Origin: a virus
Length of the DNA: 61,324 nt
IMG/VR virus record: IMGVR_UViG_3300046472_000303
Span: 1 to 61,324 of that record
Direction: 5' to 3' (one strand)
The position numbers and the translations under genes were made by a program. Under the pieces are notes generated by a model. The model saw nothing but the letters and a program-made list of their open reading frames with translations. It was not told where the DNA came from and did not search any database. Within the stretch, counting starts at the first letter, position 1. Each line of letters begins with the position of its first letter. Shown here piece after piece: positions 1 to 60,722 of this stretch.

Positions 1-44
1 CAGGGCCCGACGGAGTTGGTGATGTCGCGGTTCTCTAGGTTCAT
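1..44 (-). CDS. Partial leftward gene, first 14 codons only
   Basis: An ATG at 44-42 overlaps the stop of the nuclease gene upstream (ATGA), the same coupling used throughout this cluster. Only 14 codons (MNLENRDITNSVGP) lie in the window, so no function can be given. Direct joining to the other end of the window would create an immediate stop. Confidence 0.6.
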   Translation of the reverse strand, partial: MNLENRDITNSVGP

Positions 45-709
45 TTCTTGGCCTCGTTGTATTGGCAGGAGGTTACGGGACAGAACCGGCACAGCGGGTT
101 GGGCCGCGCCGGGAATGATTCGCTAGCGTGCGCGTCCTGGTACCGCTGCAAGCGCGGGGCCAGGCCGTTGAACACCTTGGCGATGTCGTCGCGCGTGAGC
201 CGCTCGGGGTCACGCGTGAACTTCTTTGTCTTCGTCCAGAAGTATACCAGCTGAGCTTCCTCGATTTCCTCTGCGAGGAGCATGACGACGGCGCCGGCCA
301 GCCGCAGCTGGAGGAACTCGTCTTTCATCTTGCCGGTCTTCCAATCGAACATGATGGCGCGCTTGCCGTTGATGATGGTCAGGTCGCTGATCACCCGGCA
401 GTAGGCCGCTTTGTCGAACCAGTCGCACCCCTCGTAGTTGGCGTCGATCGCCAGCTTCTGCTCCACGATCAGCTTTCCCGGGGACGCCTTGATCGGCGCC
501 AGGTACTTGGTGAGGTGGCGGATCTGAAGGGGCAGCTGCGTGCCCTGCACCATGAACTGCTTGATGGATTGGTGCACCATGTCACCGTACTGGCTGTGCT
601 CGTTGCCGAGGTCTTTGACCGTCTTGCCGACGCTGAGCGACCAATACTTTTTGGGGCAGTTCTCGAAGCTGTCGAGGCGCGAGTACGAGAAGGCGACTGG
701 TCTGGTCAT
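41..709 (-). CDS. PD-(D/E)XK nuclease, Cas4/RecB-like with cysteine cluster
   Basis: A 222-residue protein with the core of a RecB/Cas4-type nuclease: H46, E84, D109, then the DWK motif (D122, K124). One cysteine near the N-terminus (C18) and three at the C-terminus (C207, C210, C215) match the iron-sulfur-binding pattern of Cas4/AddB-like nucleases. Known of the family: metal-dependent cleavage of DNA ends in recombination or repair. Inferred role: processing of phage DNA ends or degradation of host DNA. Its start overlaps the stop of the next upstream gene by 4 nt. No CRISPR array is present, so a Cas role is not implied. Confidence 0.87.
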   Translation of the reverse strand: MTRPVAFSYSRLDSFENCPKKYWSLSVGKTVKDLGNEHSQYGDMVHQSIKQFMVQGTQLPLQIRHLTKYLAPIKASPGKLIVEQKLAIDANYEGCDWFDKAAYCRVISDLTIINGKRAIMFDWKTGKMKDEFLQLRLAGAVVMLLAEEIEEAQLVYFWTKTKKFTRDPERLTRDDIAKVFNGLAPRLQRYQDAHASESFPARPNPLCRFCPVTSCQYNEAKK

Positions 710-2431: not shown

Positions 2432-2598
2432 TTTGCCTTCTCCTTCAGATGGTTAACGATCTTCCTGACTGCTTCGGTCAGCATGCCCAGGCTCCAGTCG
2501 ATGCGGGCGCTGCGGGCTTCGTGCACCGCGGCCAGCTTCTCGAGCCGGGCAACCCGGCCCTCCAGGGACTCATTTGCAGTGGCCGTAGGTAGGGCCAT
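2428..2598 (-). CDS. Short coiled-coil protein overlapping the polymerase 3' end
   Basis: A 56-residue ORF whose ATG (2598-2596) lies inside the last codons of the polymerase gene in another frame, overlapping it by 29 nt. Its TGA overlaps the GTG of the next gene (GTGA). The product has a heptad pattern (EGRVARLEKLAAVHEARSA) and a basic C-terminus (KIVNHLKEKAK). It fills the only gap between two tightly coupled genes. Function unknown. Confidence 0.65.
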   Translation of the reverse strand: MALPTATANESLEGRVARLEKLAAVHEARSARIDWSLGMLTEAVRKIVNHLKEKAK

Positions 2599-4459
2599 CG
2601 TGTATCTCCACAGCTATGGGCAGCATGGGTAGGGGCACGAACTTCTCGCACATCGCGCGCTCGATCGCCGGCTTGACCTTCGCCACCCACTCCGTGGGCA
2701 CGACCCAGATCAGCTCGTCGTGCGCCTGGTGCGCGGCGGGCATCCCGGCGCGGGCGATCCGGATCTCGGCCTTCGTGGCCACGATCCTCGCCAGAGCCTG
2801 TGTGACGTTCTCAGTGACGACGCCGCCCCAGAGGCGGCCCTTGGTAGCCTTCTTCCCCTTGCGCTTGCTGTCGTAGATCATGCGGCCGTACATGCCATCG
2901 TCCGGGTCGATGTCGATCCTGATCCCCGGATAGATGATCGGCATGCCATTGGGGAGGATGATCCGCTCGTGCACGAACACGAACGGGCCCCAGCTCACCA
3001 TGGCCTTGGGGCTCATGCAGTTCTGCACCAGCTCCTCAAGCTGGTTCCACAGCGCCGGGATCGCCGGGTACGTGTCGCGGTAGAGGTCCACGATGCGGCG
3101 GGCCTCCTGCTCGGTCATCTTCACCCCGGCCAAGCTCATGACGTTCATGAACTTCTTCCAGCCCATGCCGTAGCCCAGGCCGAGAATGCACATCTTGCCG
3201 ACGAATCTCTCGGTGATGTCGGCCTTGGTGATTGTCCTGCCGTAGACCCTGCTAGCAAACTGGCAGTAGATGTCGACGCCATTCGCGAACGCCGCGACCA
3301 GGTCCCACTGCCCCGCGAGCGTTGCCACGATGCGGGCCTCGATGTTGCTGAAGTCCGCGGCCACGACGCTGTGCCCGGCGGGCGCCTTCATCGAGCGCCG
3401 CAGGGCGCCCTTGCGCGGGTCCTTCTTGTCGGGGCGCGGCAGGTTCTGGAGATTGATCAGCTCCATGCCGCCGAAGCGCCCCGGGTGCGCCGCGTAGTAG
3501 AGCAGCGGGATCGGGAGCAGATGCTCCCCGAACAGATCCAGGTCCCAGATCTTCGTAAACCTGTCCAGGCGCTTCGCCTCGAGCGTGCTGCTAAGGACCC
3601 CACGCGCTTCGACTAGCGCGCGCACCTCGGGGTCGTCGTGCAGCCGCAGGGCTATGAACTCCTCGTCGTCCTTGGCGAAGGCGTAGGTCTCTTTGCCCGT
3701 GGTCTTGCTGAGCTTCTTGGGGGCATCCACCCCCCGCGCTTTCAACAGCTTCACGAACGTCGGCCGGGAGCGCACGTCGTCCTCGCTCACGCCCAGCGCG
3801 CCGATGCCGGCCAGGATGCCGATGTGCTTCTGGTTGAGCGCTTCGCGGGCGACGGCGATCTCCTCCAGGTCGAGCTCGAACTTCGGCCGCAGGTACTTCT
3901 TCAGTGTCAGGTCGAGCAGATCTTGCTCGTCCACCGGCAGCCACTGGCACAGCACGCGCTTGACCCCGGCCGTCAGCTCGGAATCGTTGCAGCAGTAGTT
4001 GCCGTACGAGATAAGCTCCGCCACCGTGAAGTCCGCGCGGTGCTGGCCACGGTGGTTCTCTACCTCGTGGCCCTTCTCGCCCACGCCCAGGTACTTGGCC
4101 ACAGCTGCCAGCGACATGCTCCCCGTGTACGGCACGACGTATGGCCGCGAGGCCATCATCGTGCAGAAGATCTTCGCCGCGCTCGGGATGTTGAAGTGCC
4201 ATTCCAGGATCGCGGCGTCGAACATGGCGTTATGTGCAATGAGGCGCGCACGGCCCCAGTCGACTTCGAGCAGCCGGTGCCGCATCTCGTCGAAGGTGCC
4301 GCTGTACCACTCGGCCGGCGCGTCGCCGATCTTCAAGCTGAACCCGATCACCTCGAAGCGGGGGTCGAGCACGTACTCGATGTTGGTCAGCTTGGTCAGG
4401 GAATAGTCGGTGTCGTAGTAGGTCTCGAAGTCCAGCACGACGTCGGTTAGGTCTGTCAT
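2570..4459 (-). CDS. Family A DNA polymerase with 3'-5' exonuclease
   Basis: A 629-residue replicative polymerase. The start at 4459 overlaps the previous stop (ATGA). The N-terminal exonuclease has ExoI LDFET (D10, E12), ExoII AHNAMFD and an ExoIII-like YGNYCCND. The polymerase has motif A VVAADFSNIEAR (aspartate near 369), an O-helix RFVGKM...GLGYG and motif C HDE (about 580-582). Known: template-directed DNA synthesis with proofreading; no 5' nuclease domain is present, as is usual for phage enzymes. It sits in the left arm while the primase-helicase is at 50.8 kb, so replication genes are split between two leftward blocks. Confidence 0.97.
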   Translation of the reverse strand: MTDLTDVVLDFETYYDTDYSLTKLTNIEYVLDPRFEVIGFSLKIGDAPAEWYSGTFDEMRHRLLEVDWGRARLIAHNAMFDAAILEWHFNIPSAAKIFCTMMASRPYVVPYTGSMSLAAVAKYLGVGEKGHEVENHRGQHRADFTVAELISYGNYCCNDSELTAGVKRVLCQWLPVDEQDLLDLTLKKYLRPKFELDLEEIAVAREALNQKHIGILAGIGALGVSEDDVRSRPTFVKLLKARGVDAPKKLSKTTGKETYAFAKDDEEFIALRLHDDPEVRALVEARGVLSSTLEAKRLDRFTKIWDLDLFGEHLLPIPLLYYAAHPGRFGGMELINLQNLPRPDKKDPRKGALRRSMKAPAGHSVVAADFSNIEARIVATLAGQWDLVAAFANGVDIYCQFASRVYGRTITKADITERFVGKMCILGLGYGMGWKKFMNVMSLAGVKMTEQEARRIVDLYRDTYPAIPALWNQLEELVQNCMSPKAMVSWGPFVFVHERIILPNGMPIIYPGIRIDIDPDDGMYGRMIYDSKRKGKKATKGRLWGGVVTENVTQALARIVATKAEIRIARAGMPAAHQAHDELIWVVPTEWVAKVKPAIERAMCEKFVPLPMLPIAVEIHDGPTYGHCK

Positions 4460-5208
4460 CCCTTCACACTCGCCCACTCGTTGGGTTGGTGCTCGGTGAT
4501 CCGCTTCTGAGCATAGCGATCGTCGCCGCGCGGAATCATCCAGCACTTGGCCATCGTCTCTACCATGCGGTAGACCCTATTGCGCGGGAAGGCACTCCAG
4601 TCGTGCGGCACCGCGCTTGTTCGCGGCTGCATCTCGAGCGCCAACCGCTTCTCCTCTGGCAGATACTGTACCATTTCCGGGCACATCCTGCGCAACTGGC
4701 CGGCGGTGTTGATCATCGCGATCAGCTCCTTGCACGTCTTGATCGCCGACTCGCACTCCCCGACGAGCTGGGCGTAGTTGCGCGCCCAGGACAGCAGGGT
4801 CTTGGCGTGCTCGCCGAAGGCCGCCTCGAAGGCCGCCATCGTCACGAGCGGCCCCTCCGGTGCGGGGGGCAGGTGCATGAAGGCCCGGCCCAGTAGATCG
4901 TCGCGGACCGCCGGGTTGCCCACGTACTCCGAGTTGTCCCCGAGGTGTACGGTAAGATCCTGGGCGCCCACTCCGGCGCATGGCAGGACCATTGTGGCGC
5001 CGCCCGAGAACCACGACGCGCAGCTGTAGCCGCGGCGGGTCATCTCGACGACGACCCTCTGCACCCCCGGCTCGATCAGATTGTTGAACAGCCGGGGCAT
5101 CTCCGCCTGCGCGAGCGGGAACTTCACGACGTCGTAGCAGCGGCCGAACAGCCGCTTGAAATCAAGCTCCAGGTCTTCCTTCGCCCCCATCCCTATCCGA
5201 GTTGACAT
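4456..5208 (-). CDS. Hypothetical protein next to DNA polymerase, 250 residues
   Basis: Start at 5208 chosen for the GGAGGAG site upstream; it overlaps the neighbouring membrane-protein gene by 47 nt. The protein is soluble and mixed alpha/beta, with four cysteines spread over the length and a helical middle (residues about 120-190). Directly upstream of the polymerase and coupled to it by ATGA, so a replication accessory role is possible. No motif is recognised. Confidence 0.8.
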   Translation of the reverse strand: MSTRIGMGAKEDLELDFKRLFGRCYDVVKFPLAQAEMPRLFNNLIEPGVQRVVVEMTRRGYSCASWFSGGATMVLPCAGVGAQDLTVHLGDNSEYVGNPAVRDDLLGRAFMHLPPAPEGPLVTMAAFEAAFGEHAKTLLSWARNYAQLVGECESAIKTCKELIAMINTAGQLRRMCPEMVQYLPEEKRLALEMQPRTSAVPHDWSAFPRNRVYRMVETMAKCWMIPRGDDRYAQKRITEHQPNEWASVKG

Positions 5209-5850: not shown

Positions 5851-7020
5851 TCAATCCTCCGACATCGGGACGTGCAGGGTCAAGCCGAACGGCGCGGTGC
5901 AGCCCTCGTTGCCGGCGATGCACCAGATCACGGGGTACCCCGGGTCCTCACCGAACGGCGTGTAGCCGTCCGTCAGGATCACCACGAAGTCCGCATCGAT
6001 GCCGCGCTTCTCGATCTCCCGGAAGATCACCGTCATGTCCGTGCCACCACCCCCGCCGCACTTGGCCTTGAGGTCGAGCAGCTCGTTCACGTCGTGGATC
6101 TCGTGGAGCTCGTCGTTGAACAGGTCTGCGTCCACGAACCCGACGTGCAGGGTCTCGGGGTTGCAGTCCGTCATGATGCCGTGCATCTCGCCGAACCAGG
6201 TCTTGATGAACGCCGGGCTGATAGACCCCGACGTGTCCACCTCGATCACGCCGACGCCGGCCTTGGACCCGGTGCGCCCCGGCATGTAGACGTGCGGGGC
6301 GATGCAGAGCTTGCGCTTGTTCGGACGGCGCCAGGTGTACTCCTCGTTGCCGATCACGTTCTGCAACGTGCGCAGGATGTGATCGGTCCATGTAACCTTT
6401 GGTTCACAGATATCGTCCACCAGCCGTTGCAACCCACCCGGCAGCGAGCCCGCGGCCTTGGCCGCCGACGCCGCCATCTTGACCGCGCGCTGGATGGTCG
6501 CCGGGTCCGGCAGCGTCGCCGGGTCCTGCGCCGGGATGTGCGTGTCCCAGTTGTCGTCGTCCTCGGGCGGGTCGGGGATCTTGGTGTAGACCTCGTCCCA
6601 CACGTCCGCCGCCGTGATCTGCGGGTTGAATAGCGAGCCCAGCGGCAGCTTGAAGCCGCCGTCGGCCAGCATCTGGTTGATGATGTAGTCCTGCGCGTGG
6701 TTGGCCTTCTTCATGTTGAAGGGCTTCATGTCGGGGCCAACGCCCAGGTCCATGTAGCCGCGGCTGCGCTCACAGTGCCGCAGCACCACGTGCATGACCT
6801 CGTGGCAGAGCACGCCGATGCGCTCGGGCACCGTGATCTGCTTGAAGAACGCGGGATTCACGTAGATCGCTCGCCCGTCGGTGCACGCCGTGGGTAGCGG
6901 CCTGCCGTGGACGGTCGTCGCCTCGTGGATCTCGAGCAGGTCGAACAGCAGCACCGCATAGAACGGCTGCTGTACCACCAGCGCGCTGATCGCGTCACTG
7001 AGTTCCGTGCTTCTGGTCAT
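5851..7020 (-). CDS. VWA protein with N-terminal metallopeptidase-like domain (DUF2201 type)
   Basis: A 389-residue protein. The start at 7020 lies inside the upstream gene (26-nt overlap). The N-terminal half has a zinc-peptidase motif HEVMH (73-77) followed by H82; the C-terminal third is a von Willebrand A domain with a MIDAS motif DTSGS near residue 260 and a later TDGYTPFG strand. Known: this arrangement (DUF2201 N-terminal plus VWA-like) usually pairs with MoxR-type AAA+ ATPases. The partner ATPase is at 8342-9442. Inferred: the set forms a metal- and ATP-dependent chaperone or remodelling complex; the substrate is unknown. Confidence 0.88.
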   Translation of the reverse strand: MTRSTELSDAISALVVQQPFYAVLLFDLLEIHEATTVHGRPLPTACTDGRAIYVNPAFFKQITVPERIGVLCHEVMHVVLRHCERSRGYMDLGVGPDMKPFNMKKANHAQDYIINQMLADGGFKLPLGSLFNPQITAADVWDEVYTKIPDPPEDDDNWDTHIPAQDPATLPDPATIQRAVKMAASAAKAAGSLPGGLQRLVDDICEPKVTWTDHILRTLQNVIGNEEYTWRRPNKRKLCIAPHVYMPGRTGSKAGVGVIEVDTSGSISPAFIKTWFGEMHGIMTDCNPETLHVGFVDADLFNDELHEIHDVNELLDLKAKCGGGGGTDMTVIFREIEKRGIDADFVVILTDGYTPFGEDPGYPVIWCIAGNEGCTAPFGLTLHVPMSED

Positions 7021-7393
7021 TGGCCAGCTCCTTGTCGAGTTGAAGAAGTAAGTTTCGCAGAGCCACCCACTGGATGTCCCCACCGTAGTACGCGCGGCGC
7101 GGATCGTTGCCGCCGCCGCCGCGGGCTGCGGCCAGCAGACCCGACAGCACTTGGTTCCGCTTCTCCTGCCGCCCCCGCCGCCGCCACGCTATCACCTCTG
7201 CGTCGAGCAGCGCGTAGGCCTTGCTCATGATGCTGTGGAACGTGCGACCGAGCTCGTCGGCTACCTCCTTGGCCGTGGCGCCCTGGCGCAGACGGTTCAT
7301 GAGGTAGACGTGATCCGTCACCAGCCACTCGGCCCGATGGTTCGCCGGCTTGTCGGGCAGCTCCATCTGCGAGGTGAATGGCTTGCGTTTCAC
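6995..7393 (-). CDS. Putative DNA-binding protein, 132 residues
   Basis: GTG at 7393 overlaps the previous stop (GTGA); a second GTG at 7399 is possible. Residues about 30-65 look like a helix-turn-helix (LRQGATAKEVADELGRTFHS), followed by a strongly basic patch (WRRRGRQEKR). Inferred: a small regulator or DNA-binding accessory protein inside the MoxR/VWA unit. The family is not recognised. Confidence 0.72.
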   Translation of the reverse strand: MKRKPFTSQMELPDKPANHRAEWLVTDHVYLMNRLRQGATAKEVADELGRTFHSIMSKAYALLDAEVIAWRRRGRQEKRNQVLSGLLAAARGGGGNDPRRAYYGGDIQWVALRNLLLQLDKELANDQKHGTQ

Positions 7394-8316
7394 GCCCACA
7401 CGTCGGGCAGCTGGGCCTCGGCCAGCAGAGCCCGGGCGTCCTCCGCCGCGGCCTTCGCCCTCATGGGGTCGTCGCGGTAGGACTCGATCGGCTTGGACAG
7501 CAGCCGCTGCTCGATCTTGTCGGCGAACTCCGCCAGCTTCGGGTTCTGGCTGAGGTTCATGTTGCGCGCCATCTGCACGAGGCCCTGCATGTTCGTGACC
7601 AGGGTGCTGTACAGACGGGTCTTCTCGCCGGCGCCGTGCCGCGCAAACTGCTCCGCGACACGCTCGAGCTCCTCCAAGAAGCGCTCCTGCATCTCCTTGA
7701 GGGCGTTGGCCACCTGGATCTCCGCCTGCGACGCGCTGCGCTGACCGAGCGCCTCCGCCAGCTCCGCCGGCACGTTGAGCCGGCTGAAGTCCGCGATGGC
7801 CGGGACAGTCCGCAGGTTCACGTTCACGCTGAACAGGCTGGGGATCTGCGATGCGTCCGGGTAGTCGTTCGCATCCGCGAGGCCGGCGAGATTACGCATC
7901 GCCTCCGCCACCCGCTGAGCCCAGACCGCCTGGAGCGCGAGCACCGACCGATCGTAGTCCTTCTTCAGGCCGTTCAGCTCCACGATGAAGTCCATCGCGG
8001 CGGTGGACGCCAGCAGCCGTTCGCCGCGCCGCGCCCCGTCTGAAGTACTGGACCACGAGAGCGTACGGTTGTACACGAAGCTCCGCAGCGCGTTGCCGAG
8101 CGTGTGCACTTCCTTCAGCTCCTGCTTGGCACCCGACAGCAGGTTCTTCACGAAGACCCCACCGTCATCCGCAGCGCCCTTGTTGGCGAGCACTTCCTTG
8201 GATGCCGTGCGGTCGGTGGACTTTCCCGACCAGGAACGAATTGCAAGATCGACCAACAGGTAGTTGGCGGCCATCGCCTCGTTGAGCGCGGTGGCCTTGT
8301 CCGGTGTGTCGGACAT
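7390..8316 (-). CDS. MoxR/VWA-associated helical protein (DUF3150-like, tentative)
   Basis: A 308-residue, mostly helical protein lying between the MoxR ATPase and the VWA gene. It has an N-terminal SWSGKSTDRTASKEVLANKG segment, a conserved-looking NDYPDASQI region near 150 and long coiled-coil-like helices at 190-250. From memory, DUF3150-type proteins occupy the same place beside phage MoxR/VWA genes; this could not be checked. Context suggests a third component of the complex. Confidence 0.82.
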   Translation of the reverse strand: MSDTPDKATALNEAMAANYLLVDLAIRSWSGKSTDRTASKEVLANKGAADDGGVFVKNLLSGAKQELKEVHTLGNALRSFVYNRTLSWSSTSDGARRGERLLASTAAMDFIVELNGLKKDYDRSVLALQAVWAQRVAEAMRNLAGLADANDYPDASQIPSLFSVNVNLRTVPAIADFSRLNVPAELAEALGQRSASQAEIQVANALKEMQERFLEELERVAEQFARHGAGEKTRLYSTLVTNMQGLVQMARNMNLSQNPKLAEFADKIEQRLLSKPIESYRDDPMRAKAAAEDARALLAEAQLPDVWA

Positions 8317-8341
8317 GGCACTCTCCTTGCCGAGCGGGGTT

Positions 8342-9442
8342 CTACCGCTTGGTGTTGCTGACGTTGATCAGAGCCTTGTTGTTCTTGATCCAGGTGGTCA
8401 TCTTCTGCGAGTTCAGCAGCGTGCCGCCGCCCCGCGCGATGAGGTTCTGGCCCGTCGACACCTGAATCTCACGCGGTAGTCTCTCCGCGTAGGTCCAGAG
8501 AATGTCGATGTTGTCGGGCTTCGCGTAGTGCAAGAGCAGCTGCGCCGCCACGAACGCGATGTGAAGGTCCTCGGCCTTCGGGCACTTCGCGGTCATCGGA
8601 TCCTTCAGGATCTCCTCGATGTCCGGGAGCTTGTCGCCGAGCTTGATGTGCGCGCCCAGCTCCGCCGTCGCGGACTCGCCGATGAAGCCCTGGATCACTT
8701 GCAGGCCGAGAGAATCCAGCTGGATCTTCATCACGACGTTGCCGTTGTCGTCCACGCCAGCCAGGTTGCTGACGTACTCCGCCGCTGCGGTGAACGACCG
8801 GGCCGTGCAGAAAGGCCCCTCGTGCTTGGGCACGCTCTCCGCAAAGACGATGCCGGGACGCTGCTTCGCGAAGGCGATCATCAGCGGGTGCATCTTGCGG
8901 GCCTCGGCCCAGAGCGACCACGAGAGCACGTCCGACTGGAGTTGGATCGAGCATTCCCGATTGGTCATCATCTTCAGGGCCTTGCTCGCACCGGACTGGT
9001 CCTCGACGCGGTTGCTCGCAGACCACACCTGCCAGCCCTCGGGGAGATACTCGTCCCCGAAGCGCTTCGACAGGATGATCGGCGCGCAGGCCTTGTTGAC
9101 CAGGATGTCGGCCGAGTTCCGCTCGTCGATGAAGTAGATGCCTCGCGGGTGCGCCTTGAAGTACTCCTTCGTCGGGAGCAACGCGGGCCGCGTGTAGAAC
9201 GACGACGGCGTGCCGTCGGCGAGCTTGGTCGGCACCAGGAAGCCGCGGATATCGGGCGCGTCGACGGTCGGAGCCAGGAAGCTCCAAAAGCCGAACGGCT
9301 CGCTGAACGCGGCGGAGAGGGTCGCAGTGATATCGTGCTGAATCACGTCCGACTTGCCGATGCCGGGCGGTCCCATCAGATGGACAGCTCGTCCGGTTCG
9401 GTAGATGTCGGGGGCGACCTTGACGAGGTCGATAATGCGCAT
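8342..9442 (-). CDS. MoxR-family AAA+ ATPase
   Basis: A 366-residue ATPase. Walker A GPPGIGKS at 24-31, Walker B IYFIDE at 102-107, sensor 1 SASNR with N144. An AAAGGAG site precedes the ATG at 9442. Known of the family: hexameric MoxR ATPases act with VWA-domain partners to remodel or insert metal into target proteins. The VWA partner lies two genes downstream in the same unit. Inferred role: remodelling a host or phage complex early in infection. Confidence 0.93.
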   Translation of the reverse strand: MRIIDLVKVAPDIYRTGRAVHLMGPPGIGKSDVIQHDITATLSAAFSEPFGFWSFLAPTVDAPDIRGFLVPTKLADGTPSSFYTRPALLPTKEYFKAHPRGIYFIDERNSADILVNKACAPIILSKRFGDEYLPEGWQVWSASNRVEDQSGASKALKMMTNRECSIQLQSDVLSWSLWAEARKMHPLMIAFAKQRPGIVFAESVPKHEGPFCTARSFTAAAEYVSNLAGVDDNGNVVMKIQLDSLGLQVIQGFIGESATAELGAHIKLGDKLPDIEEILKDPMTAKCPKAEDLHIAFVAAQLLLHYAKPDNIDILWTYAERLPREIQVSTGQNLIARGGGTLLNSQKMTTWIKNNKALINVSNTKR

Positions 9443-43417: not shown

Positions 43418-46400
43418 ATGCCCGCCCCGCCGATTCCCGACCAGGGCACGCAGCAGCTCCTCGAACAGGCTTACGCCGACGCGCGTTCGTCTCTGAAGGG
43501 CCAGGTTCCGGATTCCCTCCTTCACTCCGTCCCGCGTAACGCGGGGCCGGATTCTGACGCGTCCTCGCTGAGTCTCCGACAAGCGCCCGGCGGTATCGAA
43601 AACGGTACGGCTGAGCAGGTGGACGAGCCGCCGCCCGGTGCGATCCCCTACGGCGCGAACGATTACAAAGAAGTCGCCGAGCCGCCCAAGGGCGCGGAGC
43701 CGATCGAGGAGCCCAGCGTTGGCGGCTTCCTCAAAGAGGAGTTCAGGGGCACCGGCGACGAGCTGCTGAAGGCCGTCCCGCGCTTCCTCCTGAGCCTCGG
43801 CAAGTCCGTCGCGTTCCTCGGCGGCGGCGCTGCTGGCGCGACCGCAGATACCATCAAGTCCGCCGTCACCGGCAAGGACAGCCACGAGTACGCCGACGCG
43901 GCGTTCGACTACATCCGCGATGAGATCGACTCCGCTGCCAACAACATGCTCGGCACCAAGTCCGACACGGGTGGCGCGGCGCAGGTCATCGGCGGCGTGG
44001 CGCAGATCGTACCGGCCCTGGCGCTTGGCGGCGCCGGTGGCGCAGTCGTGTTCGCCACCCAGGCTGGCAGCGAAGCCGCGCAGCGGAGCATCGACGCCGG
44101 CGCAGACGCGAAGACCGCCGCCGCGATCGCGGTGATCGCCGCCGGTACGGCTGCCGGACAGATGAAGATGGCTTGGGCGAACCCGAGCATCGTGAAGCGC
44201 ATCGCCGCGGCAGCGGGCGCCAACGTCGCGCTGACGGAGGGGTCGCGCTGGCTCGCGAGCCAGATCCTGAAGTCGCGTGGTTTCCAGAAAGCTGCCAAGG
44301 AGTACGACCCGACGGATCCGGACAGCCTGAAGGAGAGCGGCCTGATGGGCGCGATCTTCGGCGCGCTGGCCGGCAAGGGCGTGAAGCCCGAGGCCGCTCC
44401 CAAGCCCGCCGAGACTCCTCCGGCCGCTGCTCCGCCGCCTGGACCCCCGGGTGCCGGTCCTGCGCCGCCCCCGCCGCCGACGTGGGCCGGCAAGGGCGTT
44501 ACGTCCGAGGGCGCGCCGGTCACGCCGATCGACCCCTCGCGCTTGGGCACCGGTGTCGGTGCGATGCGCATCGGCGTCAAGGGCGAGAATCTAAGCGCTA
44601 CGCCGCCGAGTGATCTGCAGGGTGCTGGCCATGCGCCGCCCGCCCCGGAGGCTGTCCCGCCCGTAAAGATTCCCGACCACCCGAGCCAGGAGCCTCTCAA
44701 AGACATCCAGGCGCAGCGTGCCGAGCTCGACAAGGGTACCCGCAAGGGTGTGTACCTGACGGCCGATAACGTCAAGGCGCTCGGTAAAGAGGGCGTGAAG
44801 GCCCTTGCTGGCGACAAGCCGGCCACGATGAACTTCGACGGGAAGGGCGGGGCGATGATCTTCACCTCCGTCGGCGACCGCATGCGCGCGGGCAAGGCCA
44901 AGGCCAAGCTCGGCGCTGAGGGCGACATGCAGGCCCTGATCGGCGAGCTCACCGGCGCCGGCAAGGGCAAGACCGCGGACCAGACCGCCGTCGTCCAGGG
45001 TCACACGCCCGATGGCGCGGTGGCCAGCGAGAGCATGGTCAAGCCGTCCGAGGTCGCTGCCAAGGTCGAGGAGGTCAAAGCTGCTGGCCACGAGCCTGTG
45101 GTGACGACCCCGCAGGAGGCAGTTGCGCGCCGTGAAGAAGTCATCGCCCAGGAGGCCAAGACCCCCGAGGCGGATCACAATACGCCGCCACCCGCCGCCG
45201 AAGCCCCGAAGGCCGAGGTGATCAAGCGCAAGGCTAAGACCCGCATCAACGTAAAAGACCTCAAGCCCGCCGAGGGCGTCACCCAGGAAGCGGCCACCGA
45301 AGCGGCCAAGCCTGCGGAGATTACGGCGCCAAAGTCCGCAGAATCTGCGGAGAAAGCACCCGCTGCGGAAGCGGCCAAAGAGCCGGCCACTGTCCAAGAA
45401 AAGCCCGTGTCCACGAATAATGGACAGGCTGAGAAAGTGGACACCGTCCAGACTCGCGGCGAGGCAATCCCCGATCTTGAGAAGGCCGCCGGCAACCTGC
45501 GCTCCAGCGAGGGCAAGAAGGGCAAGCTCGCCGACCGTGCGCAGAACGTCTCGGCGTTTGCGCACGTGCTCAAGGCCGCGGCCGCAAAAGCATTCGAAGG
45601 CAAGACCGCCGACGAAGCCGCCATAAATCGCGCCAACGAAGCGGCCAACGCCGCGGTGCGCATGGGCGAGAAGTCGACCGAGGAAGTCGCCAAAGGACAG
45701 GGTATTGGGCACGCCGAGCTGGCTGCTCACGCGCAGGAGATGCTTGCCGCGGCTGACCAGCTGCAGGGCAAGTCCGCCGCTGTGAAGGCGCCGGTGAGCG
45801 CGGTGCGCGCGGCGAAGCTGAAGGCCCGGGCCGAGAAGGCCAAGGCCGCAGTCGAAACCCAGCGCGCCGAGGGCGCGAAGGCCGCCGCCGCGACGCCGGA
45901 CGAGACGGTCATGGTCCGCGGCCAGCCGAAGTCCATGAAGGAAGTTGTCGCCGACGCGCGTAGTCGCGGCACCAAGCCCACGTTCAAAGACATCGGCGCC
46001 GAGCTCGAGGTGGACGCGAAGGATCGTCGCAGGGTTGCGGACGCCATCAAGGCGGCCAAGAAGACCCGCGTCTCGAAGGCTGAAGCTGATGTCGGCAAGG
46101 TGAAGTCCGCCATCGCGGACACCGAGGACGAGGTCAAGGCGGCGAAGAAGGCCGCTGCCGAGAAGGGCCCGCTACGGGAGCTGTCGAAGGACGAGCACCG
46201 CGACCTCGACAAGAAGATGGAGGCCTACAAGATCGCTGGCGAGGGTGCGGCGATGTATCACCGCGGCCGGCTCGAGCAGGCGCTGCATGAGCTGTTCAAG
46301 CCCAACAGCGCGGCCGAGCACGAGGCCATCACCAACCTGATGACCAGCGCCGAGCACCTGCGGGCTGACTGGCACGGCACGGCGCCGCGCGACCTGGAAG

Positions 46401-49400
46401 GCGAAGTCGAGAAGGAAGTCGGCGACACGGGCGGGATTGACTACTCGGACCCGGACGCCGGTGCGCACATCGGCGGCGACAACGGCCGCGGGTCCAGCGA
46501 AAACCTGGACATGCCGGCACACGCGGCAGTACGCGCCGCGTACAATCATTGGTATCGGCTGCACGACAAGCTCGATCACGAGCTGATGTACGCGATGATG
46601 CAGATCAATCGGCACAACGAGGTGCCGACCACCGCGCACGACAACTACAGCACACACTGGCTGCTAGATAAGATGATCAGGGCCGGCGGCCCGGATAACC
46701 CGGTCACGCAGCTGCTGCAGACGCTCCGTAAGAACGTGCCGGACATGCCGGTCTACCCGATGGCCTCGGTGCGCAACCCGATCACGGGCGCGGTCATGCC
46801 TGGCGTCTCCGGTCTCCATAACCCCTCGCACGGCATTCAGATTCGCCTGCGCCTGGGCGACGAGGCCAACCCGTTCACCTCGGTGACGCTGGTCCACGAG
46901 ATGCTGCACGCGGCGACGCAGCACTTCATTGATGCGAACCCGAAGCATCCGCTGGTCACCGAGCTCAAGCGTATGCGCAAGATCGCCGAGGTCCGTCTCC
47001 GCGCGATGCACGGCGACGAGAAGGTCTCCACCTACCTCGACACGATCAGGGGCAAGATGAAGGCCAACGATGCCCGCGAGCTCAACAGCGCGCGGCGCTT
47101 CTACGGCTTGACGAACATCCATGAGTTCATCACCGAGACGCTGACCAACCCGGACTTCGCTCGCATGCTGGAGGAGTCGGAGAAATTCGCGCAGCCGGGC
47201 GAGAACATCCCTCACGGCAGCATCTTGAGCCGGATTTTCAACGTGCTCTCGCGCATGCTCGGCATCAAGGATCCGGAGCAGGCCCGGCTCTTGGCTGCAA
47301 CCGCGAATATCTCGCAGCGGATCATGGAGGCGCAGAAGGCCCAGGAGCACAAGCTGTTCACCAGCGTGCCCATGGGCGAGGAGGTCGCCGCCGATCCGAC
47401 GCACGAGTCTTTGGCCTCGCTCGAGCACAACCTCAGCGACCCCGAGCAGGACCGCCGCCTCGTCAACGAACCCCGCATCGCGGCATCGATCGGTCGGGCC
47501 GCCACCAACGTGGCGCGCAGGTTCTACAGCGCCGTGCGCACCGGCGACATCGGCAAGGCGCGCCGCGTGGTCGAGCCGTTCAAGGGCTTCGATCAGATCG
47601 TGCGCGACGGCCTGCAGTGGTTCGGCGGTCGCGGCGACGCGAACAATCCCCTGCGTCAGTATCACGAGGCGACCGTCGCCGGCGAGGCCCGCTCCAATGC
47701 GATCACGGAGCGCGCGCAGCCGCTGGTCGAGCGCGCTACCAAGCTGTCGTCTAAGGACTCCAAGCAGCTCGGCGAGCTCATGCACGACGCGACGATCTGG
47801 GGCATCGACCCGACGACGCCGAAGGACGAGCACTCGAAGTCGACCCAGAACGCGCCGAAGTTCGAGCAGCGCTACAAGGATTTCACGGACCGTTGGGAGA
47901 ACCTGACGCCGGAGCAGCAGGGCCTATTCAAGGACGTGCGCGATTTCAATCACTGGGCCGCGGCGAAGAACCGCGAGTCGGCGATCGACGCCGCGCTGCG
48001 CACGTTCACCGACAAGGAAGTCCCGCCGGCCGAGCGCGCCAAGCTCTACGGTGTCCGCAGCGGCAAGCAGTTCGAGAGCATGATCGGCCCCGGCAAGGGC
48101 ATCGACGCCGGCGACCGCAACCCGGCGATGGTCCGCGCGCTGGAGACTCTCGCCGGCGGCAACCGCATCGAGGGCCCGTACTTCCACCTCGGCCGCAACG
48201 GCGAGTATGTGGTGCAGATCACCCCCGAAGGCTCCAAGCAGTTCGGCACCCGCGACGAGGCCGAGACCTTCGCGCGGAACATCCGCGACCTCAGCCCGGA
48301 ATCCGACGCGATCATCTCGGAGAACCCCGACGGCACACACGGCGTGGACTACTCGGCCGACTATGTCTCGATGCACGAGACCCCGGCGCACGCCGAGGAG
48401 GAAGCCGCGGGCCTGCGCGCCAAGGGCTTCGAAGTCGGCAACGTCACGCACAAGATCCAGAGCCGGGAATCGGCGCCGCTGTCGCAGGGTGCGGAGCAGC
48501 TGATCTCCGAGGCCACGCGCAAACTGAACCGATCCATGGGCGGCGAGCAGGCGCAGCCTCTCGTCGACGCGCTACGGACCTCGTTCGTCCAGATGATGGC
48601 GCAGCGCTCGGCCTACGCGGGCTCGAGGCTGATGCGCAAGGGCACGGGCGGTGTGAAGGGTGAGGAGTGGCTGCGGAACTTCGCGGACCACACCCAGTCG
48701 TTGGCGTGGCACACGGGGCAGATGCACTCGGTGTTCGCCAAGGGTGAAGCCCTCGGCAAGGTGCGGGCGGCGGTGAAAGACCCCAGCCTGACGATGAAGA
48801 CCGCGCGCGGGCGCGACATCGGCCAGCACGCTACGTACATGCGCGGCGAAGTGCTGAACGAGCTCAACCACCGGCTGCAGCAGGAGACTGCGCAGTACGG
48901 CAAGCGGTCCGGGTTCAACGCCGCGATCGCCAAGCTGGGCTTCGCCAACTACCTGGCGTCGCCGAGCCACGCGTTCATCTGGATGACGCAGAACTTCACG
49001 ACCACGATCCCCGTGGCGATGTCCCGCTGGGGCGGGCGCGCGGCTGGGTCGATGGGTGCGTCGATGGGATTGGTGGCTGGGCCGGCGTTCCGCGAGGCGA
49101 TCCTCGCGCACCTGAAGCCGGGCACGCACGGCGCCACTGACATCACCAAGGCGGTGATCCAGGCGGTGCGCAAGAGCGAGCGGTTTGGGAAGTGGGCACA
49201 GGGCGAGAACTCGCCGCTGCGGCAGCTGATGGATCGCGGCGCGATCTCGACGAGCTTCTCGAACGAGCTCGCCACGGTGGGTCGCGGCGACAACCGGCTG
49301 GTCAATCGCGTCTTCGAATACGCGCGCCTCCTGCCGCACATGGCCGACACGTTCAACCGGATCAGCACGGCGCTCACGGCGCTGGAGATGACCAAGGGTG

Positions 49401-50446
49401 ACGTCTACCAGGCGGCGGACTTCGTGCGCGAGACGCACATGGATTACAGCGGCGGCAACAAGCCCCGCGCGTTCAAGGCGGTGAGCAGGATCCCGGGGTT
49501 CAACTCGGTGACGATGTTCCGCACGTACACGCAGGGCATGGCGCACCTGCTCTACTCGAACATCAAGAACATGACGACGATGGATTTGCCGCCGGGCGCG
49601 AAGACGCGGGCGGAGTCGGCGAAGACGGTGGCGGGCGTGATGCTCGCGACCGCCGTGCTGGCGGGGGTCTCGAAGGGTATGATCCTCGAGCCCGCTCGGC
49701 TGGCGTATTACGCCTGGAACAAGATGTTCAGCGACGATGATGAATACCACGATATCAACCACGCGATCGACGCCTTCATGGCGGAGCACCTCGGAAAGTC
49801 GGTGGGTGAGATGGTGTCGCGCGGCGTCCCGCGCGCCCTCGGCTTCGACCTGTCCGGTCGTATGGGCCTCGCGGACTTGTTCTTCCACGAACCGCCGGAC
49901 CTCCTCGGCTCCTCGTGGGAGAAGCGTGCGGAGTTCCTAGCGTCTCTCCTTGGGCCGATGCCGAAGTACGTCTCGGACCAGATCACGGGCTTCCAGAAGC
50001 GCATGCAGGAGGGCGAGATTTTCGAGGCGATCGCCGGCATCGTCCCGATCAAGATGGTTCAGGACGGGCTGAAGGCTGGGCACTTGCTGGTGGGGAAGAC
50101 GGATTCGCACGGCGCGCGCGTCGTGGATCCTTCGGTGGGTGCGGCGGCCACTCGGTTCATCGGCTTCAAGCCGTCGTCCGAGGCACGCTCGCAGGAGAAG
50201 CAGGGTGTGTCGATCGAGTATCACGAGAAGGTCACCACCGCCCGCAAGGCGCTGGTCGACCGCTGGGTGAAGGGCGGGTACGCGGGTGTCTCGGCGGACA
50301 TCGCGTCGTTCAACCATCGCAACCCGGCCTACGCGATCTCGGCCAAGGACTTCGTGCGTGAGCGCAAGATGAACGTCCGGACCGAAGCTGAGGTCCGCGG
50401 CAAGGTGCCGAGGGATCCCAAGTTGCAGAAGATGCTAGACTACTGA
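43418..50446 (+). CDS. Giant internal virion protein with metallopeptidase motif, 2,342 residues
   Basis: The largest gene here. Hydrophobic segments at about 122-150, 187-220 and 233-255; proline-rich and alanine/lysine-rich linkers to about 900; a zinc-peptidase motif HEMLH at 1160-1164; a helical region (NPLRQYHEATVAGEARSNAI and onward); and a C-terminal part with another hydrophobic segment near 2070 (VAGVMLATAVLAGVS) and IPGFNSVTMFRTYTQGMAHL. This layout fits the large polyvalent (PLxRFG-type) phage proteins and T7 gp16-like core proteins. Inferred: enters the cell with DNA, crosses envelope layers and cleaves a target. Confidence 0.85.
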   Translation: MPAPPIPDQGTQQLLEQAYADARSSLKGQVPDSLLHSVPRNAGPDSDASSLSLRQAPGGIENGTAEQVDEPPPGAIPYGANDYKEVAEPPKGAEPIEEPSVGGFLKEEFRGTGDELLKAVPRFLLSLGKSVAFLGGGAAGATADTIKSAVTGKDSHEYADAAFDYIRDEIDSAANNMLGTKSDTGGAAQVIGGVAQIVPALALGGAGGAVVFATQAGSEAAQRSIDAGADAKTAAAIAVIAAGTAAGQMKMAWANPSIVKRIAAAAGANVALTEGSRWLASQILKSRGFQKAAKEYDPTDPDSLKESGLMGAIFGALAGKGVKPEAAPKPAETPPAAAPPPGPPGAGPAPPPPPTWAGKGVTSEGAPVTPIDPSRLGTGVGAMRIGVKGENLSATPPSDLQGAGHAPPAPEAVPPVKIPDHPSQEPLKDIQAQRAELDKGTRKGVYLTADNVKALGKEGVKALAGDKPATMNFDGKGGAMIFTSVGDRMRAGKAKAKLGAEGDMQALIGELTGAGKGKTADQTAVVQGHTPDGAVASESMVKPSEVAAKVEEVKAAGHEPVVTTPQEAVARREEVIAQEAKTPEADHNTPPPAAEAPKAEVIKRKAKTRINVKDLKPAEGVTQEAATEAAKPAEITAPKSAESAEKAPAAEAAKEPATVQEKPVSTNNGQAEKVDTVQTRGEAIPDLEKAAGNLRSSEGKKGKLADRAQNVSAFAHVLKAAAAKAFEGKTADEAAINRANEAANAAVRMGEKSTEEVAKGQGIGHAELAAHAQEMLAAADQLQGKSAAVKAPVSAVRAAKLKARAEKAKAAVETQRAEGAKAAAATPDETVMVRGQPKSMKEVVADARSRGTKPTFKDIGAELEVDAKDRRRVADAIKAAKKTRVSKAEADVGKVKSAIADTEDEVKAAKKAAAEKGPLRELSKDEHRDLDKKMEAYKIAGEGAAMYHRGRLEQALHELFKPNSAAEHEAITNLMTSAEHLRADWHGTAPRDLEGEVEKEVGDTGGIDYSDPDAGAHIGGDNGRGSSENLDMPAHAAVRAAYNHWYRLHDKLDHELMYAMMQINRHNEVPTTAHDNYSTHWLLDKMIRAGGPDNPVTQLLQTLRKNVPDMPVYPMASVRNPITGAVMPGVSGLHNPSHGIQIRLRLGDEANPFTSVTLVHEMLHAATQHFIDANPKHPLVTELKRMRKIAEVRLRAMHGDEKVSTYLDTIRGKMKANDARELNSARRFYGLTNIHEFITETLTNPDFARMLEESEKFAQPGENIPHGSILSRIFNVLSRMLGIKDPEQARLLAATANISQRIMEAQKAQEHKLFTSVPMGEEVAADPTHESLASLEHNLSDPEQDRRLVNEPRIAASIGRAATNVARRFYSAVRTGDIGKARRVVEPFKGFDQIVRDGLQWFGGRGDANNPLRQYHEATVAGEARSNAITERAQPLVERATKLSSKDSKQLGELMHDATIWGIDPTTPKDEHSKSTQNAPKFEQRYKDFTDRWENLTPEQQGLFKDVRDFNHWAAAKNRESAIDAALRTFTDKEVPPAERAKLYGVRSGKQFESMIGPGKGIDAGDRNPAMVRALETLAGGNRIEGPYFHLGRNGEYVVQITPEGSKQFGTRDEAETFARNIRDLSPESDAIISENPDGTHGVDYSADYVSMHETPAHAEEEAAGLRAKGFEVGNVTHKIQSRESAPLSQGAEQLISEATRKLNRSMGGEQAQPLVDALRTSFVQMMAQRSAYAGSRLMRKGTGGVKGEEWLRNFADHTQSLAWHTGQMHSVFAKGEALGKVRAAVKDPSLTMKTARGRDIGQHATYMRGEVLNELNHRLQQETAQYGKRSGFNAAIAKLGFANYLASPSHAFIWMTQNFTTTIPVAMSRWGGRAAGSMGASMGLVAGPAFREAILAHLKPGTHGATDITKAVIQAVRKSERFGKWAQGENSPLRQLMDRGAISTSFSNELATVGRGDNRLVNRVFEYARLLPHMADTFNRISTALTALEMTKGDVYQAADFVRETHMDYSGGNKPRAFKAVSRIPGFNSVTMFRTYTQGMAHLLYSNIKNMTTMDLPPGAKTRAESAKTVAGVMLATAVLAGVSKGMILEPARLAYYAWNKMFSDDDEYHDINHAIDAFMAEHLGKSVGEMVSRGVPRALGFDLSGRMGLADLFFHEPPDLLGSSWEKRAEFLASLLGPMPKYVSDQITGFQKRMQEGEIFEAIAGIVPIKMVQDGLKAGHLLVGKTDSHGARVVDPSVGAAATRFIGFKPSSEARSQEKQGVSIEYHEKVTTARKALVDRWVKGGYAGVSADIASFNHRNPAYAISAKDFVRERKMNVRTEAEVRGKVPRDPKLQKMLDY

Positions 50447-58871: not shown

Positions 58872-59139
58872 TAGAGCGCTCCTTGCGTGTGTAGTAGATG
58901 ATCTGGAGCAGCCAAAGGGTGTTGGTCGTGACGATGCCAACGCCGCCCCAAAACGACAGCCACTGATGCAGGCCCGGGTAGTAGAACAGGTTCCAGTAGC
59001 CCCACGCGGCGAAGAAGCCGCTGTGCAGCCAGCTTACGCCGCGGACCATCTTGTCCCTGCGCAGCTTCAGCACCGACTGGAAAATGAAGAACGCCCCCGC
59101 CCCCTCGAACAAACCGTTGACCGTATCCCCAAAGGTCAT
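58861..59139 (-). CDS. Three-helix membrane protein, 92 residues
   Basis: ATG at 59139 overlaps the previous stop. Hydrophobic segments about 10-25, 38-55 and 62-82 (LSFWGGVGIVTTNTLWLLQI) with a basic loop between the first two. Small membrane proteins of this type occur in other phages without known role. Confidence 0.78.
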   Translation of the reverse strand: MTFGDTVNGLFEGAGAFFIFQSVLKLRRDKMVRGVSWLHSGFFAAWGYWNLFYYPGLHQWLSFWGGVGIVTTNTLWLLQIIYYTRKERSSAK

Positions 59140-60722
59140 AGGCGCCACTCTCCATTGATGATGGTGATCAGCTGCCGCTTCCCGTTCGCGTGAAGCAGGC
59201 AGTGCGTGTTGAGCCAGCCGCTCGGCCCGAGGTTGTACTCGAGCTTCAGCGCCGTGCTGGTCCCGACTTGGTAGCAGCCCTCCTCGATGCAGGGGCTGTG
59301 CGAGTGTCCGATAACGGACTTCACGCCGATGCGCCGCAGGTTCTTGGCCGAGCCGCGCGCGCCGTTCGGGCCGAGGTCGCCGTGCATGCTGAGCTCGATG
59401 CCGGCGAGGGCGAAGGACTGCCCGGCCAGGTACTTGACGCCGGGCTTCGCCCACTGCCCGCACCAGTAGCCGAAGGGGCTCGGGTAGCTGGTGCCATGGT
59501 TGTCGAGAAGAATCCGTCGGGCCATCTCGAGCGCGGTGCGAAGGTAGAACTCGGCGTTCGTCGGGTCGTTGCGCCAGTCGGTGTCGCGCACCCAGCGGGC
59601 GAGCATGTCGTCATGGTTGGACGAGACGATCACCGACTGCCGCGTCTTCGACGTGTGCTTGTTGACGAACTCGATCGCGCGCAGCACCTCGTCGCGGGCG
59701 TTGTCCCGCCCGTGGGCGCGCTTCGCCATCGATATGAACGGGTTCCCGCGGTGGTGCGGGTTGACGGCGTAGGAGTCCAGCAGGTCATGCCACACCAGAA
59801 CCTCGGGGTCCATCACCTCGATGATGCCGCCCCTGCCGAAGGTGGCCTCCTCGACTTGCTTGTCGATGAAGTCCACGTGCGTGTCGCCCATGATCAGCGC
59901 CAGCGGGCGGCGGCCCGCCTTCGAGTAGCCGGGGCCGTATTCGCGGCCGAGGTCGGTGAACTCCCCGGTCTCTTTGGATCCGTTCAGGTGGCGCAGGTGG
60001 AACGTCTTCGGGCTCGCCACCTCGACGACGACGGCGCCCAGCGTGTGGTGGAACTCGCCTAGCTTGCCGGACTTGCTGTCCGTGTAGTTGGGCATGGTGC
60101 ACGCGCCGGTCGTGGTCATCATCTTCGGGAACTTGTGGTGCGGCGTCGGCACGACCTTCATCTGGAGCTTCGTGTGGCCCAGCACGCACGACTCGCCGTG
60201 GCTCAGGCCTTCGTATCCGGTCAACGGCGAGCTCGCCGTCGGCTGCGTCTTGATGTCCGCGAGCAGCACGACGTTCTCGTTGAGCGCCTTGCGGGCGTTG
60301 TACAGGAACGGCGTCGTCTCGGCCGACCAGGATTCCTCGTTCTCCTGGCTCGCCGTCCACGCGCTCGTGGGGTTCTTGTAGCGCAGCGGGATCACGATCA
60401 GCTCGGCATCGTTGACGTCGGCGTAGTGCTTGAGCGCTGTGAAGAACTTGGCGTGCACCGGCGTCGCGTTCTGCGCCGCGGTGATGACGAAAGTCTTGGA
60501 GTTCAGCTTGCGCGTGAACACCTTCGGGGCCGCGCCCTCGTGGCGGTTGCCGCGCTGATCGCGCACCGCGGGCACGGTCGGGTTGGTGGTCCCGTAGCAG
60601 TCGGCGCGCTGGCCGCCCTCGCGGCGGTCGCAGATCCAGCGTTGCTTGCCGGTCGGCGTCTTGCCATTCTTGCGCATCATCCCCGTCTTACAACGCGGGC
60701 ATAGGTACTTCTTGGTGGTCAC
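59136..60722 (-). CDS. Zinc-ribbon metallophosphoesterase
   Basis: A 528-residue protein. The N-terminal zinc ribbon (C8, C11, C31, C42; YLCPRCKTGMMRKNG) resembles transposase or transcription-factor ribbons. The C-terminal half is a calcineurin-like phosphoesterase: GDTHVDF (D280, H282), SSNHDD, HGDLGPNGA and GHSHSP. Known: metal-dependent phosphodiesterases acting on DNA, RNA or nucleotides. Inferred: nucleic-acid processing, possibly host DNA breakdown. GTG start overlaps the previous stop. Confidence 0.88.
   Translation of the reverse strand: MTTKKYLCPRCKTGMMRKNGKTPTGKQRWICDRREGGQRADCYGTTNPTVPAVRDQRGNRHEGAAPKVFTRKLNSKTFVITAAQNATPVHAKFFTALKHYADVNDAELIVIPLRYKNPTSAWTASQENEESWSAETTPFLYNARKALNENVVLLADIKTQPTASSPLTGYEGLSHGESCVLGHTKLQMKVVPTPHHKFPKMMTTTGACTMPNYTDSKSGKLGEFHHTLGAVVVEVASPKTFHLRHLNGSKETGEFTDLGREYGPGYSKAGRRPLALIMGDTHVDFIDKQVEEATFGRGGIIEVMDPEVLVWHDLLDSYAVNPHHRGNPFISMAKRAHGRDNARDEVLRAIEFVNKHTSKTRQSVIVSSNHDDMLARWVRDTDWRNDPTNAEFYLRTALEMARRILLDNHGTSYPSPFGYWCGQWAKPGVKYLAGQSFALAGIELSMHGDLGPNGARGSAKNLRRIGVKSVIGHSHSPCIEEGCYQVGTSTALKLEYNLGPSGWLNTHCLLHANGKRQLITIINGEWRL

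Follow-up and report, generated by a model that had tools for sequence, protein, structure and literature searches.

Several described systems combine a MoxR-type AAA+ ATPase with a VWA-domain partner. In NorQ-NorD (NorQD), cryo-electron microscopy revealed a finger of the VWA protein in the MoxR pore and an ATP-driven twisting of the linker, the metal ion-dependent adhesion site (MIDAS) of the VWA domain being thought to hold the client (PMC13036017). Iyer et al. (2021; PMC7824862) described a pair made of MoxR and a vWA-metallopeptidase from group 2.2 jumbo phages, proposed a role in virion assembly and drew an analogy with p618/p892 of Acidianus two-tailed virus. Here, a set of genes containing the same pair was analysed in the virus record IMGVR_UViG_3300046472_000303, the whole stretch of which (61,324 bases, exact terminal repeats not found) is referred to as the window. 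The set encodes the MoxR ATPase, a protein designated P3 and the metallopeptidase-VWA protein (Table 1). The original prediction had read four open reading frames (ORFs) of the minus strand as one unit of phage origin, namely these three and a small helix-turn-helix (HTH)-type protein; all four ORFs are present.

P3 proved to be a conserved companion of the MoxR-VWA pair. Searches against phages and genomes with the P3 sequence, alone or with its close clade, gave no match, and P3 looked like an orphan until its status was overturned by profile iteration. A profile built from three close relatives was iterated to convergence and searched in the 7,888 ORFs of 65 loci (the loci compared with the window carry labels such as L005, L015 or L063). 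It picked 30 ORFs, every one of them close beside MoxR and VWA genes; the next-best ORF (E 0.024) is truncated and also sits beside a VWA gene. Two loci found via P3 alone turned out to carry the MoxR-VWA pair. The survey of gene-cluster conservation that had been suggested with the original prediction was run on 25 non-redundant viral loci, where the order MoxR-P3-VWA occurs 20 times, P3-MoxR-VWA four times and MoxR-VWA-P3 once. A fixed order was thus not confirmed; the linkage of the three genes was, as it holds across all three orders, often with overlapping genes. Linkage that survives such shuffling is good evidence that P3 is a functional partner of the pair.

Other candidates for a diverged P3 were rejected. 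The proteins N4 gp20, P121 gp60 and D491 gp45 of Schitoviridae (~270 aa, encoded upstream of MoxR) gave E ~0.1 (gp20, gp45) or nothing (gp60) in an unfiltered hmmsearch with the P3 profile, with an hhalign probability of 0.1. Large ORFs adjoining MoxR in loci devoid of P3 (L026, L055, L056, L060, L061, L029, L024 and L033) were likewise rejected by hhalign.

The label 'DUF3150-like' given to P3 was upheld at the family level. The P3 of the window itself matched nothing in Pfam below E 0.03 and did not match PF11348 (DUF3150) at E<=0.1, and its nearest annotated plasmid homologue reached 22.1 bits against a gathering cut-off of 24.9. Five of the 25 P3-family members matched PF11348 (best E 4e-4), and hhalign aligned the P3 family with PF11348 members over 248 columns (97.9%, E 3.8e-13), reversed sequences giving no match. 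The AlphaFold2 model of P3 (pLDDT 93.5) matched the viral 'DUF3150 domain-containing protein' A0A6J7WV52 in BFVD with E 8.9e-14 and template-modelling scores of 0.78/0.82. Taken at the level of profiles and predicted models, P3 is a distant relative of DUF3150. Among solved structures Foldseek found no relative at E <= 0.001 (best 0.34); in a VIA structure comparison Z was 9.0 or less and mostly reflected common helical-bundle regions, which is not proof of a new fold.

The partner proteins are well preserved. In the VWA protein, Pfam scans identified an N-terminal DUF2201_N metallopeptidase domain (PF13203, E 2.3e-39) and a C-terminal DUF2201 VWA-like domain (PF09967, E 2.9e-16), and the match to PHROG 1314 reached E 2.1e-74; the CobT N-terminal and CobT_C domains were absent from this protein. 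Together with the PHROG 1297 match of the ATPase, this substantiates the claim of a MoxR ATPase beside a VWA protein with a zinc-peptidase-like domain. Translation likely starts at ATG 7020, preceded by aaggag, and not at GTG 7083, in which case the last part of the HTH gene and the start of the VWA gene overlap. The motif HEVMH had been read correctly and extends to HEVMHVVLRH, a putative zinc site of the form HExxH-x4-H, whose complete H/E/H/H set is kept in 66 of the 68 relatives aligned without gaps. The MIDAS residues D-S-S-T-D are complete in 69/69 relatives. The AlphaFold2 model (pLDDT 86.5) has the canonical fold of VWA domains, with Z up to 11.9, and the VWA domain of NorD is among its Foldseek matches.

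Two relatives keep domain and MIDAS without an intact HExxH and appear to be pseudo-peptidases: L063 (4845-6209), with Q for E, and the Variovorax plasmid L070 (7956-9254), with AT for HE. Furthermore, PHROG 1314 and many phage records name the VWA protein 'HNH endonuclease' (e.g. L005:5968-7092, L009:5926-7152). DUF2201_N/DUF2201 were present and HNH was absent in the PHROG 1314 members scanned, and the label in the phage records has probably been carried over from this PHROG.

For the ATPase, alignment of 66 MoxR relatives showed that the Walker A, Walker B, sensor 1, Arg and sensor 2 residues are kept in 65-66 of them, the acidic residue of Walker B being Glu in 57 and Asp in nine. Among solved structures the MoxR profile came nearest to Midasin, a closeness that is expected for the dynein/MoxR clade.

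The HTH gene did not turn out to be part of the conserved set. Its ORF is present in the operon here and the HTH assignment is suggested by a weak profile match (Table 1), but no homologue was found in any of the 65 loci compared. It is private to this phage and not a conserved part of the machine, so that the four-gene unit of the original prediction is reduced to three. In relatives the corresponding slot is empty or occupied by unrelated ORFs or HNH genes. The P3-VWA gap holds a ~90-aa protein family with a VNEGNI motif in L015 (3835-4122), L018 (8709-9044), L020 (8686-8961) and L050 (11138-11404). HNH-type genes (C-x2-C ... DHNH / DHDH) resembling mobile insertions were seen between MoxR and P3 in L015 (2476-2937) and L020 (7112-7552).

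The three genes are not confined to phages. On the Burkholderia plasmid pBVIE02 the P3 profile matched a gene for a 309-aa protein between MoxR and VWA (E 1.6e-64), and a search with this middle gene retrieved 41 plasmid records with P3. Four of these were inspected, a Cupriavidus and a Variovorax plasmid among them, and all four carry MoxR-P3-VWA; the same order occurs in cyanophage MinM2. In Cupriavidus/Burkholderia plasmids (L069:1-252, L066:1-557) a ThiF gene of the PRTRC system or a ThiF-type gene lies ~5 kb upstream of the set. In 299 evenly drawn Pseudomonadota genomes, the P3 family gave one match, which fell in the Burkholderia genome taken as centre, and PF11348 gave six; both are thus rare. 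In four out of five bacterial loci, bona fide DUF3150 was found near a CbbQ/NorQ-type MoxR and/or a CobT-type VWA gene: L085 has both (AAA_5/CbbQ_C MoxR), L087 has MoxR, L086 and L089 have the VWA gene, and neither was seen in L088. DUF3150 therefore goes with MoxR-VWA machinery of two kinds that differ in the VWA partner, and the set cannot be called specifically 'of phage origin' as had been proposed. Since DUF3150/P3 adjoin MoxR and/or VWA across viruses, plasmids and bacteria, DUF3150 is probably the third subunit of a MoxR-VWA machine family, the zinc domain probably being a lineage-specific attachment of the phage/plasmid branch.

The MoxR/VWA-metallopeptidase pair as such is ordinary and already known in phages, so that the novelty implied for it does not stand: N4 gp24/gp25 and the fusion of Iyer et al. 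(2021) precede it. By tblastn, 483 phage records match the VWA protein and 507 match MoxR. Carriers include N4, N4-like phages of Vibrio, Pseudomonas and roseobacters (roseophages), Vequintavirinae, PA5oct, 121Q and cyanophage S-TIM66, and the window encodes the same pair, with the ATPase motifs of PHROG 1297, a complete MIDAS and an N-terminal HExxH domain. In N4, gp24/gp25 lie between the RNA polymerase genes (RNAP1/RNAP2) and rIIA; their phenotype is not mentioned in the CRISPRi-ART paper. MoxR, three small genes, VWA and PolA are present in Rhizobium phage RHph_TM3_14A, where P3 was not found. In Pseudoalteromonas phage pYD6-A (L006:1-1625) MoxR is split (annotated as a join of 2) with an ORF inside and an HNH gene adjoining, and the VWA gene lies 4 kb away. 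Close linkage of the pair is not universal, because in Vequintavirus navn (L013:822-2282 and 5929-7113) the two genes are on opposite strands, 3.6 kb apart.

Where the set lies in the genome bears on its role. The minus strand carries, between 0 and 10 kb, a RecB-like exonuclease, PolA and the set with the HTH gene and, between 50.8 and 60.7 kb, a primase, a helicase, a deoxynucleoside monophosphate phosphatase and a 'DNA transfer protein'. The plus strand carries terminase, head-tail adaptor/portal, major head protein and internal virion protein between 23 and 50 kb. As it shares its strand with PolA, exonuclease, primase and helicase, the set is placed in the replication block. The minus strand reads MoxR, P3, HTH-like, metallopeptidase-VWA, p118, p250 and PolA, with tight or overlapping spacing save a gap of 332 bp 3' of the VWA gene. 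The predicted position beside a DNA polymerase thus holds here, and in relatives PolA and the RecB-like exonuclease follow 2.5-9 kb downstream of the set. In the survey of neighbours, structural genes were detected within reach of the set in only two loci, on the opposite strand.

From these observations we infer, with about even confidence, that the products of the three conserved genes form a single ATP-driven protein-remodelling complex acting in the replication/takeover phase rather than primarily in virion assembly. The MoxR hexamer would be the motor. The VWA domain would dock on the MoxR ring and present the substrate via its MIDAS, and the zincin domain fused to it could clip the opened substrate. 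P3 would be a dedicated third subunit, most likely a substrate adaptor or scaffold; the adaptor role is suggested by the conserved linkage and by the swapping of the VWA type around P3. The working mode is most likely similar to that of NorQ-NorD: by analogy, the client would be gripped by the MIDAS and/or P3 while MoxR twists the VWA-zincin protein against it, and would thereby be opened for remodelling or cleavage. The target would be a host or phage protein assembly during the replication/takeover phase, a timing favoured by the PolA/exonuclease neighbours and by the occurrence of the set on plasmids, which make no virions.

Several points weigh against this reading. P3 was not found in 35 of the 69 loci that have a VWA gene, a number that includes truncated contigs, and is therefore not obligatory. 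Mirror-tree correlations (r 0.90-0.94) are no better than those of the PolA control (0.93-0.96), so that co-evolution gives no independent support. A P3 acting as scaffold or regulator would give the same pattern as an adaptor. The neighbour counts (PolA in 15 loci, exonuclease in 13) are biased, the queries being the proteins of this very phage. In some plasmids the set could serve to assemble the mating apparatus. Finally, the pair lies near structural genes in the jumbo phages 121Q and S-TIM66, the PA5oct record flags its ATPase as detected by mass spectrometry, and the virion proteome of phAPEC6 holds an ATPase of matching size.

These last findings, along with the published proposal of Iyer et al. 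(2021), argue for a chaperone-protease of virion assembly, in which the complex would remodel and trim structural proteins during head/tail maturation. This alternative is nevertheless unlikely for the set described here, which lies in the replication module, with the structural genes on the other strand, and is also found on conjugative plasmids; moreover, the N4 genes sit between RNA polymerase and rIIA genes. The ATPase in the phAPEC6 virion list was matched by product name and size only, and the same list includes thymidylate synthase, so that detection there is unspecific. The early/replication position and the sharing of the set by phages and plasmids, which meet the same host defences, would also suit a counter-defence or host-takeover protease that specifically takes apart or cuts a complex of host defence or regulation. 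We regard this as quite improbable: PADLOC gave no match save a weak 57-residue PglZ match to MoxR (E 0.0095), a direct link to a defence target was not found, and the adjoining genes belong to replication and not to known anti-defence functions. Least probable is a metal-insertion chaperone similar to NorQD/CobST, which would open a metalloenzyme while HExxH-x4-H binds or delivers the metal without cutting peptides: NorD works that way (PMC13036017), bona fide DUF3150 adjoins CobT-type VWA and CbbQ/NorQ-type MoxR, and L063 and L070 lack the catalytic Glu with the rest kept, but the annotated ORFs of the window show no obvious metalloenzyme gene and a pure metal site would not need the HExxH Glu kept in 66/68.

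The remodelling complex of the replication/takeover phase may belong to something broader. It is possible, although we lean against the proposal as a whole, that DUF3150 proteins serve generally as third subunit in an as yet undescribed MoxR-VWA class of phages, large plasmids and bacteria, whose phage/plasmid branch would be a 'remodel-and-cut' machine with the protease on the adaptor and not in the ring, reprogramming or taking over a host complex during replication. No mention of DUF3150 was found in the open-access literature, subscription papers being outside the scope, and neither the three-component architecture nor its spread through phages, plasmids and bacterial genomes appears to have been described there. 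The pair of MoxR and VWA-metallopeptidase is among the frequent gene pairs of lytic phages that lack an explanation (~480-510 records per protein). A third subunit common to plasmids and CobT-type bacterial loci defines a testable complex and argues against a role in virion assembly only; P3 also offers a handle for finding the client.

Two further regions of the window were recorded. The 'DNA transfer protein' of the replication block (59136-60722, minus strand) matches PHROG 1745 of that name with E 7e-150, and homologues occur near the set in L015, L018, L020 and L051. Downstream of the structural genes, an ORF of 2,342 aa (43418-50446, plus strand) matches only the unknown PHROGs 37402 and 14422.

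Table 1. Position of the MoxR-P3-VWA set, its motifs and adjoining genes in the window (RBS, ribosome-binding site).
Feature	Position	Strand	Evidence
MoxR-type AAA+ ATPase, 366 aa	8342..9442	-	ATG, RBS aaaggaga; PHROG 1297 'ATPase' E 1.8e-55
Walker A GPPGIGKS	9350..9373	-	Alignment
P3, 308-aa DUF3150-like alpha/beta (mostly helical) protein	7390..8316	-	ATG, RBS aaggaga
Small HTH-like protein, 134 aa	6995..7399	-	PHROG 323 E 8e-5 (weak profile match)
N-terminal zincin-like metallopeptidase + C-terminal VWA, 389 aa	5851..7020	-	ATG 7020; PF13203, PF09967, PHROG 1314
HEVMHVVLRH, HExxH-x4-H putative zinc site	6775..6804	-	H/E/H/H kept in 67/66/68/68 of 68 gap-free relatives
MIDAS DTSGS	6223..6237	-	Plus T at 6042-6040 and D at 5970-5968; 69/69 relatives
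p250, protein without assigned function between VWA and PolA	4456..5208	-	phmmer matches in 6 loci; kept in close relatives
Family A DNA polymerase (PolA)	2570..4459	-	PF00476 E 5e-27; homologue adjoins set in 15 loci
RecB-like PD-(D/E)XK exonuclease, replication module	41..709	-	PF12705 E 4e-14; homologues in 13 loci

Compared with known systems, the set shares with the MoxR-vWA ternary conflict systems (Kaur et al., 2020) the combination of MoxR, vWA and a third protein. There, however, the third protein is VMAP, iSTAND or another and not DUF3150, and the systems occur mostly in multicellular bacteria and carry effector domains; Pfam/NCBIfam scans of P3 gave no match to VMAP, iSTAND or the other third components, a direct profile comparison not having been made. 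NorQ-NorD and CbbQ-CbbO likewise join a MoxR motor with a VWA-MIDAS partner, and NorD VWA is among the fold matches, but they have neither the zinc domain nor DUF3150, and their client enzymes are known. The bacterial loci with CbbQ/NorQ-type MoxR, DUF3150 and CobT-type VWA follow the same three-part logic, although their VWA protein is CobT-like without the DUF2201_N zinc domain and their DUF3150 is only distantly related to P3. The N4 gp24/gp25 pair and its counterparts in Schitoviridae, Vequintavirinae and jumbo phages present the same two proteins, motifs, domain fusion and usual order, and are phage-encoded; the members examined yielded no DUF3150-like third gene, and identity to the window is ~18-34%. 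On Burkholderiales plasmids, PRTRC or conjugation genes surround the set, in contrast to the phage replication module of the window, yet these plasmids and cyanophage MinM2 have the same three components in the same order, with a DUF2201_N/DUF2201 VWA protein.

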